Shown piece after piece: positions 49,104-63,733 of a DNA stretch of 64,000 nucleotides. Source of the DNA: Paraburkholderia flagellata (lineage in GTDB: Bacteria; Pseudomonadota; Gammaproteobacteria; Burkholderiales; Burkholderiaceae); contig NZ_JAJEJT010000002.1 of NCBI RefSeq assembly GCF_021390645.1, positions 620,001-684,000 on the forward strand, given 5' to 3'. Both the position numbers and the translations under genes were made by a program. The notes beneath the pieces were generated by a model. The model worked only from the letters and a program-made list of their open reading frames with translations. It was not told the DNA's origin and searched no databases. The first letter of the stretch is position 1. Every line of letters begins with the position of its first letter.

Positions 49104-49132
49104 TTGACGCGCAAGCCCCCCGCGCCTACACT
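49104..49132 (+). promoter_or_regulatory. Sigma-70 promoter of the cobW-cobN transcript
   Basis: TTGACG (49104-49109) and TACACT (49127-49132) are separated by exactly 17 bases. Transcription would begin near 49139, immediately before the cobalamin riboswitch. Confidence 0.75.
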
Positions 49133-49141
49133 CGCTCGCAC

Positions 49142-49386
49142 TCTGGTGCTCGCGCGCGCGATTCATGATGCGTGCGCAGTTAAACGGGAATCAGGGAGCC
49201 ATCCCGCCTCGGGCATGGCCAACCTGAACTGCACCCGCAACGGTACAACGAGCGCGGCGTTCGAACGAATGCCGCAAACCGCTTCCATGCTTTACGCAGT
49301 CCACGCCACTGTGCGAGCCGGCCGCAAGGCCGTTCGCGCGGGAAGGCGAAGCGGTGTTTCGTCAGTCCGGATACCGGCCAGATACG
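49142..49386 (+). promoter_or_regulatory. Cobalamin riboswitch upstream of cobW
   Basis: Conserved blocks appear in order: GGTGCTCG, GTTAAACGGGAATCAGGGAG, CTGAACTGCACCCGCAACGG (the B12 box region), GCCACTGTGCGAGCCGG, GGGAAGGCGAAGCGG and GTCAGTCCGGATACCGGCC. This is a complete class-I element on the plus strand. About 225 bases lie between it and the cobW start. It should repress cobW-cobN and the chelatase ATPase gene when adenosylcobalamin is abundant. Confidence 0.95.
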
Positions 49387-49611
49387 TGGGATTCGCGCTG
49401 CGGGGATGCGGCGCCGGGTCCGTGATTTTCATGCGTCAGCCGGGCGAAGCCTGGGTGCGTTTCCGGTCGTTCGTCCCCTGCAGGTTTTTTGAATCGTTGC
49501 GCGTGACGGCGTCTCCACGGATACGCGCGCGCCCGCTAGACGACACCCGCACGAACGGCCAGCGCGACGCACCATGCCCCTCTATCCGGCCTGGCGCCGA
49601 AGGAGCACTTC

Positions 49612-50703
49612 ATGCAAATGCGCAAGATTCCGGCCACGATCGTGACGGGCTTTCTCGGCAGCGGTAAAACCACGCTGCTGCGTCACATTCTTCAGCACGC
49701 GGGCGGTCTGCGTGTCGCGGTCATCGTCAACGAATTCGGCGAACTCGGCATCGACGGCGAAATTCTGCGCGGCTGCGGTATTGGCTGCGACGAGAACGGC
49801 AACGAAACAGAAGGCCAGCTCTACGAACTCGCGAACGGGTGCCTGTGCTGCACCGTGCAGGAAGAGTTCTTCCCCGTGATGGAGAAACTGCTCGAGCGCC
49901 GCGGCGACATCGATCACGTGCTGATCGAGACCTCGGGTCTCGCGCTGCCCAAGCCGCTCGTGCAGGCGTTCAACTGGCCGTCGATCCGCAATGCGTTCAC
50001 CGTCGATGCGGTCGTGACCGTGGTGGACGGCCCCGCCGCCGCGAGCGGTCAGTTCGCCGAAAATCCGCAGGCCGTGGACGCGCAGCGCCGCGCCGACCCG
50101 AATCTCGATCACGAATCGCCGCTGCACGAGCTGTTCGAAGACCAGCTTTCGGCCGCCGATCTCGTCATTCTCAACAAGACCGATCTGCTCGACGAAGCGG
50201 GCCAGGACGCGCTCATCGCCGAGTTGCGCGAAGAACTGCCGCCGCAGGTGAAGATCGTGCGCGCGCAGCACGGCAAGCTCGATCTGCATACGTTGCTCGG
50301 GCTCGAAGCGGCCTCCGAGGAGAGCATTCATCTTCGTCACGACCATCACGGTTCCGCCGACGACCCCGATCATCATCATGACGAGTTCGACTCGGTCGTG
50401 GTGTCGGGCGCGGCCGCTTCGCGCGAGACTGTGATCGAAGCGCTGCAACAACTTGTCGACGCGCACACGATCTATCGCGTGAAGGGTTTCGCCGCGCTGC
50501 CGGGCGCGCCGATGCGTCTCGTGATTCAAGGCGTGGGCCGCCGCTTCGACAGCTATTTCGACCGCCGCTGGAACGCGCAGGAAAGCGCGGCGCAGCCGCT
50601 TGCGAGCCGTTTCGTGCTGATTGGCGAAGACCTCGATGGCGCGGCGCTGCAAATGGCGTTCGATACGGCATTGGCGAACGTGCAGACCGTGGGCGCGAAG
50701 TGA
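49612..50703 (+). CDS. cobW: CobW-type GTP-dependent metallochaperone
   Basis: 363 residues from ATG 49612, with AGGAG 6 bases upstream. The P-loop TGFLGSGKTTLLRHIL, the GCLCCTV motif for metal binding and LNKTDL are all present. A His/Asp-rich stretch of about 30 residues (HLRHDHHG ... DPDHHHDEFD) precedes the C-terminal domain and may store or sense metal. It supplies Co2+ for the CobN complex. It is the first gene behind the riboswitch and is followed by cobN after 27 bases. Confidence 0.95.
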   Translation: MQMRKIPATIVTGFLGSGKTTLLRHILQHAGGLRVAVIVNEFGELGIDGEILRGCGIGCDENGNETEGQLYELANGCLCCTVQEEFFPVMEKLLERRGDIDHVLIETSGLALPKPLVQAFNWPSIRNAFTVDAVVTVVDGPAAASGQFAENPQAVDAQRRADPNLDHESPLHELFEDQLSAADLVILNKTDLLDEAGQDALIAELREELPPQVKIVRAQHGKLDLHTLLGLEAASEESIHLRHDHHGSADDPDHHHDEFDSVVVSGAAASRETVIEALQQLVDAHTIYRVKGFAALPGAPMRLVIQGVGRRFDSYFDRRWNAQESAAQPLASRFVLIGEDLDGAALQMAFDTALANVQTVGAK

Positions 50704-50730: not shown

Positions 50731-53700
50731 ATGCATTTGCTGCGCACCACGCCGGGCGGTTTCGTCGACGACACGCAGGGCGTCATCCGTATCGACCAGC
50801 AGCCCGCCGAAATCGTCGTGCTCAGTTCGGCGGACACCACGCTCGCGCTCCTGGCGAGCGTCGTGCCGCGCCTGCCAGCGGGCTTTCCGGGCGTGCGGCT
50901 CGCGAACGTCACGTACCTGCGCCAGCCCGCATCGGTGGACTTCTACATCGAAGACGTGTTGCAGCACGCGCGGGTGGTGGTGGTCGATCATCTGGGCGGC
51001 GAAACGTACTGGCCTTACGGCATCGAGCAGGTCGTCTCGCTCGCGCAGCGTCGCGGGCAACTGCTCGCGATGTTTTCGGGCGACTTGCAGGAAGACCCCA
51101 ATCTCATCGCGAGGAGCCGCGCCGAGCCCGAGTTTTGCCGCCTGCTTTGGCGTTATCTGCGCGAAGGCGGCGCGGCGAACGCCGAGTCGTTTCTACGCGC
51201 GCTCGCGTGGCGCGCATTCGATTGGGGCAGCGAGCCGGCGCCGCCCATCGCGCTGCCGGCCGCCGCGCTGTATTGCCCGCAGCGCGACGTCGCGACCATC
51301 GACGAATGGCGCGCGCGCTGGCAACCCGGCGCACCGGTTGTCGCGCTGCTGTTTTACAAGGCGCATTTGCAGGCCGCGAACACGGCCGCTTTCGATGCGC
51401 TCATTACCGCGCTGCTGGCGCGTGGTATGAACCCGCTGCCGCTTGCGATCACCTCGCTCAAGGACACCTTGAGCCGCGACGTGCTCGATCAACTCGCAGC
51501 CGAGCACGACGTCTCGCTCGTGCTGAACACCACGGCGTTTGCGGCTTCGTCGCTGGACGACCCCGAACCGCTCGCGCTCGCCGGCGACGCGCCCGTGCTC
51601 CAGGTGATCCTGAGCGGCGGCAACCGCGAAGATTGGGTCAAGGACAACCACGGCCTGAACTCGCGCGACATCGCCATGCATATCGCGCTGCCCGAGGTGG
51701 ACGGCCGCGTGATTACGCGCGCGATCAGTTTCAAGGGCCTCGCGTATCACTGCAAAGCGACGCAAGTCGATGTCGTGCGTTATCAGCCCGACCTGGAGCG
51801 CGTGGCTTTCGTCGCGGAACTCGCGCGCCGCTGGTGCCGTTTGCGCAGCCTGCCCAACGCAGAGAAAAAGCTCGCGCTCGTGCTCGCGAACTATCCGATG
51901 AGCGAAGGGCGCATTGGCAACGGCGTGGGACTCGACACGCCGGCCTCGGTGGTTGGCATCCTGCGCATGCTGCGCGATGAAGGCTACCGTGTAGCCGATC
52001 TGCCCGAAGACGGCGACGCGCTCATGCGCATCCTCACGCAAGGCGTGACGAACGATCCCGACACGCGCGCGTTGCGCCCGGCATGGCAGAGCCTTTCGCT
52101 CGACGACTACCGCGCGCGCTTCTCGCAACTGCCCGCCGAAGCGCAGAACGCGCTGATCGCGCGTTGGGGCCCGCCGGAAGCGGACCCCACGGTGCGGCGC
52201 GGCCGCTTCATGATCGCGGGCTGGCGTTGCGGCCAGGTGTTCGTGGGCATCCAGCCTTCGCGCTCGCGCGGCGACGACACTTACGCGAACTACCACGACG
52301 CCGAACTCGTGCCGCCGCACGCATACCTCGCGTTTTACTTCTGGCTGCGCGAGACGTTCGGCATCGACGCCATCGCACACGTGGGCAAGCACGGCAATCT
52401 GGAGTGGCTACCGGGCAAGAGCGTGGCGCTTGCCGACACCTGCTGGCCCGACATGGCGCTCGGGCCGCTGCCGCATCTGTATCCGTTCATCGTCAACGAT
52501 CCGGGCGAGGGGAGCCAGGCCAAGCGCCGCGCCCAGGCCGTGATCGTCGATCACCTGATGCCGCCGCTCACGCGCGCCGAAAACTATGGGCCGCTGCAAG
52601 ACCTCGAACGTCAGGTCGATGAGTATTACGAAGCATTGATGGTGGACCCGCGCCGTGCGAAGCTGCTGCGCAAGACCATACTCGCGACCATCATCGAGCA
52701 TCGGCTGCACGAAGAACTGAGCGTCGCCGCGCCCAAGGATCAGGCTGGAGAAGACGAACTCCTCACGCGCGCCGACGCCTACCTCTGCGAACTGAAGGAA
52801 GCGCAGATTCGCGATGGCCTGCACACGTTCGGCGAATCGCCGCAGGGCCAGCAGCGTTGCGATACGCTGCTCGCGCTCGGGCGTTACGCCTGCGGGGACG
52901 GGCAGGGCGCGAACGCGGGCCTCATCGACGCGATCGCGCGCGACCTGCGCATCGATCACCTCGTCGATCCGGCCACGGTGGATTGGGCTGCGCCGTGGCA
53001 AGGCCCGCGTGCACCGCTGCTCGCAAGCGTGAGCGATACGCCGTGGCGTCATGCGGGCGATACGCGCGAACGCCTGGAAATGCTCGCGGCCACGTTGATC
53101 GAAGGCATTTGCTCAGGCGAACGAAACGATGCGGCGGCTCAATCGCTGCCGCACGCGGCCCAGGTACTCGCACGCCTGCACGGCGATGTGCTGCCGCGCC
53201 TCGATGCCTGCGGCCCGGAAGAAATGCGCCAGCTGCGCCGTGGTTTCGAAGGCCGTTTCGTGCCGCCTGGCCCGAGCGGTTCGCCTTCGCGCGGCCGTCC
53301 CGATGTGCTGCCCACGGGGCGCAACTTCTACTCCGTCGATACGCGCGCCATCCCCACGCAAGCCGCGTGGACGCTCGGCATGAAATCGGCGCAGCAACTC
53401 ATCGAGCGTCATTTGCAGGAGCACGGCGATTACCCCCGCGCCGTGGGGCTGTCGGTCTGGGGCACCGCGACGATGCGCACCGGCGGCGACGATATCGCCC
53501 AGGCGTTCGCGCTGATCGGCGTGCGGCCGAAGTGGGCCGCGGGCAGCCAGCGCGTGACCGACTTCGAGATCATGCCGGTCGAGGCGCTGGACCGGCCGCG
53601 CATCGACGTGACGCTGCGCGTATCGGGCTTCTTCCGCGACGCGTTTCCGAACGTGATGCATCTGTTCGACGCAGCGGTGCAGGCCGTGGCCGATCTCGAC

Positions 53701-54525
53701 GAACCGGAGCACCAGAACCCGTTGCGCGCCCGTGTGCTGCGCGAGCGCGACGCGCTGGTCGCAAACGGCATGGCCGCCGACGAGGCGCGCCGCCGCGCGG
53801 GCTGGCGCGTGTTCAGCGCGCGTCCCGGCGCTTACGGCGCGGGGCTGCAGTCGATGATCGACCATCGCCAGTGGCAAACCGACGCCGATCTCGCGAACGC
53901 ATATCAGGCCTGGGGCGGCTACGCCTATGCGCAAAAGAGCGCGGGCGATGAGGCGAGCGACGCATTCCGCGCGCGTCTCGCGACGCTCGACGTCGTGCTG
54001 CAGAACCAGGACAACCGCGAACACGACCTGCTCGACTCGAACGACTACTACCAGTTCCAGGGCGGCATGGCCGCGGCGGCGCGGCACTTTTCGCAGGCCC
54101 AGCCCGCGCTCTATCACGCGGACCACAGCAACCCCGCGGCGCCGCGCATTCGTCCGCTGCACGAGGAGATCGCGCGCGTGATCCGCTCGCGCGTGGTGAA
54201 CCCGAAGTGGATCGACGGCGTGAAGCGTCACGGCTACAAGGGCGCGGCGGAAATGGCGGCGACGGTCGATTATCTGTTCGGCTATGACGCGACCGCGCGC
54301 GTGGTGGGCGATCATCAGTACGCGCTCGTCGCGAACGCCTATGTGCACGACGACGACACGCGCGCCTTCATGCAGCGCCACAATCCGCACGCGCTGCATG
54401 CCGTGTGCGAGCGTCTGCTCGAAGCAATCCAGCGCGGTCTCTGGCAGGAGCCGGGCGAGCATCGCGCGCAACTCGAACACCGTCTGCTCGAAGCCGGGCA
54501 GCATCTGGAAGGATCAGGACCATGA
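50731..54525 (+). CDS. cobN: Cobaltochelatase large subunit
   Basis: 1264 residues, the usual CobN length. It has the CobN/BchH features: [22 protein letters not shown]-like [47 protein letters not shown], and [30 protein letters not shown]. It inserts Co2+ into hydrogenobyrinic acid a,c-diamide with ATPase partners. Its stop overlaps the ATG of the ChlI-like gene by four bases. No cobS/cobT are seen; the partner ATPase is that ChlI/ChlD-like gene. Confidence 0.95.
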
Positions 54526-55565
54526 GCGCTGCGGCCACGCGTCCCGCGTTTCCCTTTACCGCGCTGGTTGGCCAGGCGCCGTTGCAGCGCGCGCTGCTGC
54601 TCGCGGCCATCGACCCCGCAATCGGCGGCGTGCTCGTGAGCGGGCCGCGCGGCACCGCGAAATCCACGGCGGCGCGCGCGCTTGCGGCGCTGCTGCCGGA
54701 AGGCGCGTTCGTCACGCTGCCGCTTGGCGCGAGCGAGGACAAGCTGATCGGCACGCTCGACCTGGAAGCGGCGTTGCGCGAGAGCGCGGTGCGCTTCGCG
54801 CCTGGGCTGCTCGCGCGCGCCCACGGCGGCGTGCTCTACGTGGACGAGGTGAACCTGCTGCCCGATGCGCTCGTCGACGTGCTGCTCGACGCGGCGGCGA
54901 GCGGCGTGAACACCGTGGAGCGCGATGGCGTCTCGCACTCGCACGACGCGCACTTCGTGCTGGTGGGGACGATGAATCCCGAAGAGGGGGAGTTGCGTCC
55001 GCAACTGCTCGACCGTTTTGGCTTGATGGTCGAACTCGGCACGCCTTATGACGCGGCGCTGCGGCAACGCATCGTCAAGGCGCGTCTTGCGTTCGACGCC
55101 GATCCGCGCGCGTTTTGCGCGGCGCGTGAAGCCGATCAGCGCGCGCTCGCGCAGCGCATCGCGGCGGCACGCGACGCGCTCGGCAAGCTCGCGTGGAGCG
55201 ATGCCGTGCATGAGCGCGCGGCGCAACGTTGCGTTGAGGCGGCGGTTGACGGCTTGCGCGCCGACCTTGTGATGCTGCGTGCAGCGCGCGCGCTCGCCGC
55301 GTTCGAAGGCGCGGATGCCGTGACGCCGGAACACGTCGATGAGGTCGCGGATTGCGTGCTCGCGCATCGGCGGCACGCCATGCCGCAGCGCTCCGATGCG
55401 CCGTCTGCCACCGAGCCGCAGCCGCCCCTCTCCACTTCCGCACCCAGGCGAGAAGACAAGCACACCGAAACAACGCCGGATGCCGATTGGGGTGAATTGC
55501 CGCCCGAGCCCGTCGCCGCGAAGGCGGTAAAGGGCGTGATTCCGCTGCCCGCAAAAAAACGCTGA
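54522..55565 (+). CDS. ChlI-like AAA+ ATPase (chelatase small subunit), 0-frame product
   Basis: 347 residues from ATG 54522, overlapping the cobN stop (ATGA). AAA+ features are Walker [17 protein letters not shown], Walker [25 protein letters not shown], and sensor [26 protein letters not shown]. It powers metal insertion by the large subunit. The last 60 residues are low-complexity (Pro/Ala/Thr/Lys), as in the linker of ChlD proteins, and the frame ends at GCA AAA AAA CGC TGA. That end is a -1 slippery site leading into a VWA domain, so this is probably the short product of a chlD-type frameshifting gene. Confidence 0.9.
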
Positions 55566-55612
55566 CCCGTCGAGCACAGGCCGCCGCCTTCGCACAGGGC
55601 GGCGCTCGACGG
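55553..55612 (+). promoter_or_regulatory. Probable programmed -1 frameshift signal (A AAA AAA plus stem-loop)
   Basis: The heptamer A AAA AAA (55553-55559) is in phase with the ChlI frame and the stop TGA comes 3 bases after it. Seven bases downstream a stem-loop begins: CCGTCGAGC (55567-55575) with GCTCGACGG (55604-55612), and inside it GCCGCC (55580-55585) with GGCGGC (55598-55603). AAAGGG at 55529-55534 could act as a distant Shine-Dalgarno-like stimulator. Seven A in a row is exceptional in this GC-rich context. Confidence 0.75.
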
Positions 55613-56230
55613 CGAGAAGGCCCGGGGCGCGGTCCCGCGCAAGTCGTGAGGCAGGGTGAGCGCATCGCCTGGCCGCCCACGCTCGCGGCCAAACGCGCAG
55701 GATCGTTGCAAGCGCAACATTTCCGCTTCACCAAACGCAAGACGGGTTCCGGCGCGCTCCATTGCTTTGTGCTGGACTGCTCGGCCTCCATGCTTGCGCG
55801 CGGTCAGCTTGCGCTCGCCAAGGGGTTGTTGATCGCGCTGTTCGACCGCGCTCGCGCCGAACGGGTGGAAGTGGCGCTGATCGCCTTCGGCGGCGCGGGT
55901 GCCGAACTGCGTTTCGGGCCCGCGGTGCCGCGCTGGTGGAACGAGCGCTGGATCGAGCCTATCGGCGGGGGTGGCGGCACGCCGCTCGAAGCGGGCATTG
56001 GCCGAGCGGCGCGAGTGCTGGAGACGGCCGCGCGCCGCGACCCGGCGCGCGCGCGCCATCTCTGGCTCTTCAGCGACGGCCGCACGACGCAGTGGCCTGC
56101 ACGTCCGAATTCCGCCGATCACGTCACGGTGATCGATTGCGAACTTGGCGCGCTGCGTGTGGGGCGCTGCGAGGCGCTCGCGCAGGCATGGGCCGGCGAG
56201 TGCGTGGACGCTCAGGCGCTGCTCGCGTGA
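55559..56230 (+). CDS. VWA domain part of ChlD-like chelatase subunit, -1 frame
   Basis: Read from the slip site, the -1 frame has no stop for 223 residues. It gives an Arg/Gly/Ala-rich linker then [39 protein letters not shown] with a MIDAS motif (DCSAS), continuing with [13 protein letters not shown]. The fused product would be about 569 residues: AAA+ domain, linker, VWA domain, the layout of ChlD/BchD medium subunits. GTG 55646 could start a separate 194-residue protein, but it lacks a ribosome site and would cut off conserved linker. Confidence 0.8.
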
Positions 56231-63402: not shown

Positions 63403-63509
63403 GGGAATACCGGGTAAGCATTGCGCGAGAGCGGCGCGCTGCCCGCACGGCAAGCGGGAAACGGCAGCGGTATCGGTACACCCCGCCCGATATGGGTTCG
63501 CACGAACAT

Positions 63510-63668
63510 TCGGCCGGCAGGTCTCCTGGCTCGCAGGTCGTGGACCGCATCGGCCTTCCCGGTAAAACCAGTGGCTCGGGTGGATGCGGTCTCGCTGCTC
63601 ACAGTCGCGGGGGCGGCCACAGTTTGCTGTGTTCCCAGTTATGCCTTAAAGGCGCCGGCGGACACGGT
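63510..63668 (-). promoter_or_regulatory. Cobalamin riboswitch upstream of cobG
   Basis: Read on the minus strand: GGCGCC, GCATAACTGGGAACACAG, TGTGGCCGCCCCCGCGACTG (B12 box region), GAGCCACTGGTTTTACC, GGGAAGGCCGATGCGG and GCGAGCCAGGAGACCTGCCG. These are the class-I cobalamin riboswitch blocks in order. The element ends about 110 bases before the TTG start of cobG. The first element in the window (49142) is on the opposite strand and clearly diverged in sequence. Confidence 0.93.
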
Positions 63669-63733
63669 ATTATGCCCGTTTTCACGCGCGCTCCGCCCGA
63701 CAATGGGGTCGCGGGCCGATGGCGGCGCAGAGA

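Follow-up and report, generated by a model that had tools for sequence, protein, structure and literature searches.

How can a gene whose reading frame stops one codon past a run of seven A residues give rise both to a chelatase ATPase and to the VWA domain encoded in the frame behind it? The question is raised by a locus in Paraburkholderia flagellata, found in a window of 64,000 nucleotides (contig positions 620001-684000 of contig C2) from a genome of 9,002,095 bases in 6 contigs that is 99.99% complete (G000). Here an open reading frame (ORF) for a ChlI-like AAA+ protein follows cobN and is itself followed, in the -1 frame, by a VWA domain. A reading of the letters alone (the original prediction) had proposed a -1 frameshift that fuses the chelatase ATPase to the VWA domain, and this proposal is supported by a slip site, frame, spacing and hairpin that are conserved across genera. 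We regard the gene as an fs-chlD gene of the aerobic cobalamin pathway, yielding two products by programmed -1 frameshifting, with a probability of roughly 0.93. Its features, in window coordinates, are as follows.

54522..55565, + strand: ChlI-like AAA+ zero-frame ORF of 347 residues, the predicted small subunit (TIGR02442 positions 88-341; nearest structures ChlI)
55553..55559, + strand: slippery heptamer A AAA AAA, in phase (an A7 run, read directly)
55563..55565, + strand: zero-frame stop TGA, one sense codon past the slip site (position the same in 205/205 frameshift loci)
55559..56230, + strand: -1 frame of 223 codons, Arg-rich linker and VWA domain (PF13519; TIGR02442 positions 456-638; structure 2x31)
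55567..55575, + strand: outer stem, 5' arm, 9 bp, 7 nucleotides past the slip site
55583..55590, + strand: inner stem, 5' arm, 8 bp (folding, pair counts)
55596..55603, + strand: inner stem, 3' arm (folding, pair counts)
55604..55612, + strand: outer stem, 3' arm (folding, pair counts)

The zero frame begins at ATG 54522 and terminates GC[A AAA AAA] CGC TGA, whilst the -1 frame entered at 55559 stays open for 223 codons until the TGA at 56228-56230. The predicted fusion is thus 346 + 223 = 569 residues long, and the -1 frame is predicted to be the C-terminal part of a medium subunit of that length. The phase of the heptamer, the open -1 frame and product sizes of about 347 and 569 residues had all been put forward before, and each can be read directly in the sequence. 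The same is true of the statement that the GTG in the -1 frame has no ribosome site: within 60 codons past the slip site the only start codons in that frame are GTG 55646 and one TTG, and a Shine-Dalgarno (SD)-like 4-mer is absent at both.

Working from the observed elements, their conservation, the covariation and the gene context, we infer that ribosomes slip in this strain, how efficiently they do so and which subunit each product forms, along the following lines. Ribosomes that keep the ChlI-like frame would stop at TGA 55563 and release a 347-residue ATPase, the small subunit. The hairpin 7 nucleotides downstream would pause a fraction of ribosomes, on which both tRNALys molecules could slip back by one base on A AAA AAA; these ribosomes would then read the -1 frame and make the 569-residue AAA-linker-VWA protein, the medium subunit. 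Both products would join CobN, encoded upstream, to form the cobalt chelatase.

In Pfam and NCBIfam the first half is a ChlI-like AAA+ protein (AAA_lid_2 and Mg_chelatase, with BchI-ChlI below cut-off) and the second half is VWA_2 (PF13519); both align in order to TIGR02442, the model of a fused putative cobaltochelatase. Among solved structures, the ATPase half comes nearest to ChlI (6l8d, 1g8p and 8osf) and the VWA half to the 60 kDa Mg-chelatase subunit (2x31). The sequences GPRGTAKST in the ATPase half and DCSAS in the VWA half, both read directly, we take to be Walker-like and metal ion-dependent adhesion site (MIDAS)-like motifs, respectively. An identity as the magnesium chelatase ChlI/ChlD of chlorophyll synthesis was considered and is not supported, the scores lying below the cut-offs: 333.4 bits against 466.95 for BchI-ChlI (TIGR02030), 228.8 against 499.55 for BchD-ChlD and, for the partner protein, 672.1 against 829 for BchH, compared with 1569.5 bits as CobN (cut-off 822.05). 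The whole genome contains no CobN match besides this partner, and the TGA of its gene shares an ATGA with the ATG of the ChlI-like ORF, so that the two genes overlap.

Conservation across related genomes makes programmed -1 frameshifting very likely, as far as sequence comparison can tell. The ChlI-like protein is 96% identical, over the best segment, to one from Paraburkholderia hiiakae. Among 398 genomes of the family, 228 match the gene at E<=1e-40 and 242 match the CobN model, 216 of these above its cut-off; comparing the lists by eye, all 228 fall within the 242, and the 14 extra genomes are weak matches from a single genus. Some of the 228, from genera with small genomes and from others, reach E values of only about 1e-60 to 1e-70 and score weakly with the CobN model, as might be expected of a Mg chelatase; these need not be frameshift genes. 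We read 230 loci (80 named loci and 150 of the 228 matched family genomes), and after removal of L107, where the contig ends within the gene, and 15 duplicates, 214 distinct loci were left. In 205 of these a heptamer A AAA AAR is followed by exactly one sense codon, a stop and a VWA domain in the -1 frame. Of the remaining nine, eight are single ORFs and one, L060, carries the slip site but gave no VWA hit at the limit applied. In all 72 named loci other than those eight, a CobN match lies within the 6 kb flanks.

The slip heptamer is AAAAAAA in 158 of the 205 loci and AAAAAAG in 47, and the stop after it may be TGA, TAG or TAA; in seven loci the -1 codon overlapping the stop encodes Val or Met instead of Leu, without loss of the stop. 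We considered a functional need for a stop at this position, but the next zero-frame stop is a median of 87 codons further on and plain termination suffices to account for its retention. Adjacent Lys-Lys codons occur only twice in the rest of the 205 genes (in the parts counted), where 64% of Lys codons are AAG. Beyond the family, 21 loci were read at class level: five are frameshift loci (L261, L262, L263, L265 and L266), ten are long ORFs and six are stand-alone ChlI-like genes without a slip site. The five frameshift loci come from four other families, keep the same one-codon spacing and are each adjoined by CobN (in L284 only partly, because of a contig end). One of them, L263 (G615), has a longer run, A AAA AAA AAA, recalling the long runs found in the portion of the 2013 survey cited here (PMC3711429).

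The hairpin (55567-55612) consists of a 9 bp outer stem and an 8 bp inner stem (7 bp in the centroid structure) with a one-sided bulge of 7 nucleotides, and folds with -28.9 kcal/mol. The two-part stem-loop of the original prediction stands as regards position, its spacing of 7 bases and the 9 bp stem, whereas the inner stem proves to have 8 bp instead of 6. Compared with dinucleotide shuffles of the same 46 nucleotides its z score is -4.69. Across the 205 loci the folding energy of the 60 nucleotides past the slip site has a mean z of -0.75 and a median of -0.49, with 66% of loci below zero and 21% below -2. The energy of the window's own gene lies above that of its shuffles. Measured over a fixed 60 nucleotides, folding energy discriminates poorly, and it was set aside as evidence in favour of helix length and covariation.

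Both of these measures point to a conserved structure. Over 118 non-redundant loci, the longest helix that begins 5-8 nucleotides past the slip site (found at 5-7) averages 9.96 Watson-Crick pairs, compared with 4.90 in synonymous-codon shuffles and 4.71 at other positions; it reaches at least 8 pairs in 108 of the 118, and in 95 no more than 5% of the shuffles do as well. In an alignment of 44 rows, which were hand-chosen and leave out some loci of equal register (L046, L059, L136 and L165, for example), the 18-pair structure is 92.6% paired, as against 30-50% for versions slid along the sequence, and 113 cells carry a two-sided change, against a shuffled mean of 40.1 and a count that none of 500 shuffles reached. 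The counts were repeated with 67 rows, that is, all of the 118 in the window's register, and on the full set of 205 with the register held fixed. The 67 rows are 85.6% paired (slid versions 31-49%; outer helix 93.0%, inner helix 76.3%), with 175 two-sided cells compared with 68.8 in shuffles. RNAalifold, unprompted, recovers the same two helices. With the register preset from the window, 88.6% of the cells for the eight outer pairs are paired across the 164 non-Pseudomonas frameshift loci (slid 26-50%); the Pseudomonas register, whose hairpin arms are unlike those of Burkholderiales, is formed in 93.6% over 41 loci (slid 24-52%). A comparison of arms paired with their own partner or across loci (8.81/9 own, 8.08/9 cross) is biased, the own arms having been picked for pairing, and is of little use. 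Aligning the A run and the stem across related genomes, the check proposed together with the original prediction, finds both conserved, the hairpin with compensatory changes.

Several observations weigh against this reading. Longer stretches do not clearly exceed their shuffles in stability (z -0.05 for 81 nucleotides and -0.85 for 141), and for the 60 nucleotides past the slip site in the window's gene 65% of synonymous-codon shuffles reach the native energy. Because this stretch does no better than synonymous shuffles, the stability of the hairpin alone proves nothing here; its conservation does. The 9 bp helix of the window's own gene is itself reached by 8% of shuffles. Counted by pairs rather than cells, two-sided change is seen in 9 pairs of the 44 rows, a number reached by 14 of 500 shuffles, and in 12 pairs of the 67 rows, reached by 24 of 500. 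The Pseudomonas helix, although conserved, shows almost no covariation: counted on 29 of 34 non-redundant loci, it is seen in 2 of 14 pairs, with pairing at 93.3% compared with 92.5% in shuffles. As to family identity, TIGR02442 has a whole-protein cut-off of 779.45 bits, and the two halves, scored singly, reach 392.7 and 79.0. Among the relatives, 18 with long ORFs have no A AAA AAR in the linker, the AT-rich L296 excepted, and a CobN match lies near six of the ten class-level long-ORF loci in the stretch fetched; one of the other four is confined to a contig of 6.5 kb, and ChlH-type proteins score with the CobN query as well. The genome G746 (L261, L281) carries a frameshift chlD (A AAA AAG, with tRNALys CUU) together with a separate ChlI-like gene. 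Finally, outside the window the same Paraburkholderia genome holds a distant pair, a CobS-like AAA+ protein and a CobT-like VWA protein (L009 and L010, G000:C4:937644-940237), in which the CobT-like member scores 101.6 bits for Pfam CobT_C, over the cut-off of 21.

That this pair supplies both subunits whilst the window gene does something else is highly unlikely. The pair is present and its CobT_C domain passes the Pfam cut-off, but against the full NCBIfam models TIGR01650 and TIGR01651 the two proteins reach 126.5 and 105.7 bits, with cut-offs of 558.55 and 759.05. Judged by eye from the ORFs of the 3.6 kb stretches, not by family search, the two lie beside an apparent J-domain protein and an apparent regulator, and closer CobS relatives occur in a genome that has no CobN match, G085. 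No CobS, CobT or second ChlI is found in this genome at NCBIfam cut-offs or at a comparable score; the next ChlI-like match genome-wide has an E value of 3.3e-6, and the window proteins match neither TIGR01650 nor TIGR01651. The earlier statement that no separate medium subunit, CobS or CobT is visible thus holds at NCBIfam cut-offs and has to be qualified by the distant pair. Similarly, the proposal that this gene provides both partners of CobN is supported here by its position next to the sole CobN and by the lack of a second ChlI, although G746 and the single-ORF homologues show that it is not a universal rule. Across the family, far stronger CobS relatives (about 515-585 bits) are widespread, also in genomes without a CobN match.

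The other alternatives to programmed ribosomal frameshifting concern the A run and what lies behind it. RNA polymerase might slip on the run, the fusion then being translated from edited transcripts: A7 is a homopolymer, in the parts of the published accounts cited here A-run length tracked the efficiency of cassettes (PMC3711429), and Thermus dnaX uses transcriptional slippage (PMC5009743). The Pseudomonas site, however, has only six A followed by G in 41 of 41 loci, and the phase, the form of the heptamer and a hairpin that covaries and keeps almost the same distance are features of slippage by ribosomes. A runs of such length are also short for transcriptional slippage, and we give this explanation a small chance. 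A two-gene arrangement, in which translation of the VWA protein would begin independently at GTG 55646 or be coupled to termination at the stop before it, could appeal to this GTG in the -1 frame, 29 codons past the slip, and to the presence of some start codon within 60 codons past the slip in 193 of the 205 loci. An SD-like 4-mer accompanies such a start in only 11 of the 205, with another 11 before the slip in the -1 frame, and the conserved heptamer and hairpin would be left unexplained, making this arrangement very improbable. A sequencing error or pseudogene, with a base missing from or added to the A run, would be in keeping with the error-prone nature of homopolymers and with the five of nine plasmid matches that have no listed gene; since 205 of 214 loci, drawn from numerous assemblies and genera, show the two frames in this relation and both open, the chance of this is negligible.

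How general programmed frameshifting is in this family of proteins is a separate matter, on which the homologues with a single ORF bear. Eight named loci of this type, all marine gammaproteobacterial (L067, L068, L071, L072, L079, L093, L104 and L110), encode a continuous ChlI-VWA protein. A AAA AAR is absent from all eight, a second ChlI at E<=1e-15 is present in none of the eight genomes, and no CobN lies within their 6 kb flanks (0/8; the rest of those genomes was not searched for CobN). The L067 gene sits in a B12 operon of the CbiD/CbiJ (early-cobalt) type, behind a cobalt transporter. Five of the eight (L067, L068, L071, L072 and L079) have other in-phase X XXY YYZ heptamers at codons 297-418 with a -1 stop 3-11 codons on; these differ between loci (C CCA AAC in L071, for example) and leave room for a dnaX-like reversed signal within the long single-ORF homologues. 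Of the ten class-level long-ORF loci, eight have their VWA hit in the frame of the ORF itself, one has it in the +1 frame (L267, the L288 gene) and one has none (L272, as L296), and a linker heptamer with a near -1 stop is seen only in the AT-rich L296, as its composition predicts. L296 itself (G442:C1:285000-301000) comes from a 0.4 Mb AT-rich gammaproteobacterial genome with a CobN match; the C-terminal part of its long ChlI-like ORF is rich in in-phase A runs followed by -1 stops and has no VWA hit.

A rule that frameshifting occurs only with CobN was tried: it fits the named loci (72 against 8), but its reverse fails at class level, where six of ten long ORFs are near CobN. Because single-ORF genes near CobN lack the A-rich slip site, CobN can have a fused partner without frameshifting. 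By their sequences, these genes show that frameshifting would not be universally needed, and they cast doubt on a general requirement for a separate small subunit.

The second slip codon is AAA in 152 of 156 Burkholderiaceae (the grouping is our own) and AAG in 41 of 41 Pseudomonas, whereas elsewhere in the gene AAG makes up 64% and 62% of Lys codons, respectively. In the 80 of 133 chosen loci whose genomes were scanned for tRNALys(CUU) and tRNALys(UUU), AAG goes without CUU in 30 and with it in 5, and AAA goes with CUU in 40 and without it in 5 (Fisher p 1.3e-11); the UUU pattern came up blank in 4 of the 80, which is a guide to the miss rate. Collapsed to 11 lineages (L094 and L099 left out), the association is not significant (p 0.55). 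The exceptions are G260, G095, G126, G246 and G746 (AAG with CUU) and G185, G615, G819, G821 and G822 (AAA without a CUU match), of which G822 is uninformative since its UUU match is lacking too. We suggest only tentatively, at rather worse than even odds, that the second slip codon is matched at its third base to the lysine tRNAs of the host and that slip site and tRNA gene co-evolve. On this account tRNALys(CUU) would read AAG firmly and A AAA AAA would be kept, whereas with UUU alone the more shift-prone A AAA AAG would be kept. A similar argument has been made for Thermus dnaX, the sole tRNALys of E. coli pairing weakly with AAG, in the section of that work cited here (PMC5009743), and the relevant passage of Atkins et al. 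puts about half of known bacteria at one lysine tRNA. In the literature searched, the argument was not found for chlD.

The frameshift mechanism is already known for this gene in related bacteria, so the pointer in the original prediction to chlD-type genes making both subunits by frameshifting was right, and what has been published covers this genus group. The cited portion of Antonov et al. (2013; PMC3711429) describes a cluster of 23 magnesium chelatase frameshift genes from six genera that include Burkholderia and Pseudomonas, with cassettes whose efficiencies in E. coli were 63, 40 and 10%; the lowest value belongs to the cassette with A_AAA_AAA, and the genus of each cassette is not stated in that portion. 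Kuznetsov et al. (2022; PMC9227772), in the corresponding part, set out a two-subunit cobalt-chelatase model and list P. aeruginosa (stage 8). As far as these portions go, the window gene shares with the fs-chlD cluster the -1 shift, an A-rich double-Lys site, the order of ATPase and second part, a downstream structure and the cobN partner (PMC3711429, PMC9227772). It differs in nothing essential and is a further member, for which hairpin covariation has here been counted. Since it has already been published for this gene in this genus group, the mechanism matters little as a discovery; what is added is the covarying stimulatory hairpin with counts and controls, the strict one-codon spacing to the stop, a testable link between slip site and tRNALys(CUU) and the single-ORF homologues near CobN.

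Two further systems invite comparison. In E. coli dnaX a double-Lys A-rich slip site and a 3' stem-loop lead to two lengths of an AAA+ protein, the shift yielding the short product. In the window gene the shift makes the long product, and a dnaX-like upstream SD stimulator is not conserved in fs-chlD, SD-like 4-mers being present in 33 of the 205 loci. The likeness lies in a -1 shift that makes two product lengths (PMC5009743, in the part cited here). With CobN-CobS-CobT the gene has in common the large subunit CobN and the pathway context; the difference is that CobS and CobT are missing from this genome at NCBIfam cut-offs. Annotation pipelines may treat such frameshift genes as split or broken. 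For five of nine plasmid copies (H1-H5), a gene table from which pseudogenes are excluded shows nothing at the matching position, suggesting that the frameshift gene is being flagged by pipelines as defective.

The surrounding genes belong to a B12 cluster. Those upstream of the ChlI-like ORF are as follows.

49127..49396, + strand: cobalamin riboswitch RF00174 (51.9 bits; gathering score 31.5), upstream of cobW-cobN-fs-chlD
49612..50703, + strand: cobW (TIGR02475, 482 bits; cut-off 332.1)
50731..54525, + strand: cobN, aerobic cobaltochelatase large subunit (TIGR02257, 1569.5 bits; cut-off 822.05)

BluB, CobB, CobO, CobW, CobI, CobH, CobG and CobJ each pass at least one curated cut-off, and CobG is a marker of the aerobic cobalamin route. 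The minus strand carries a second cobalamin riboswitch (63500-63674) ahead of cobG, cobH, cobI and cobJ, and each half of the cluster is thus headed by a riboswitch of its own. The CobJ protein carries a weak CbiG-like N-terminal part.

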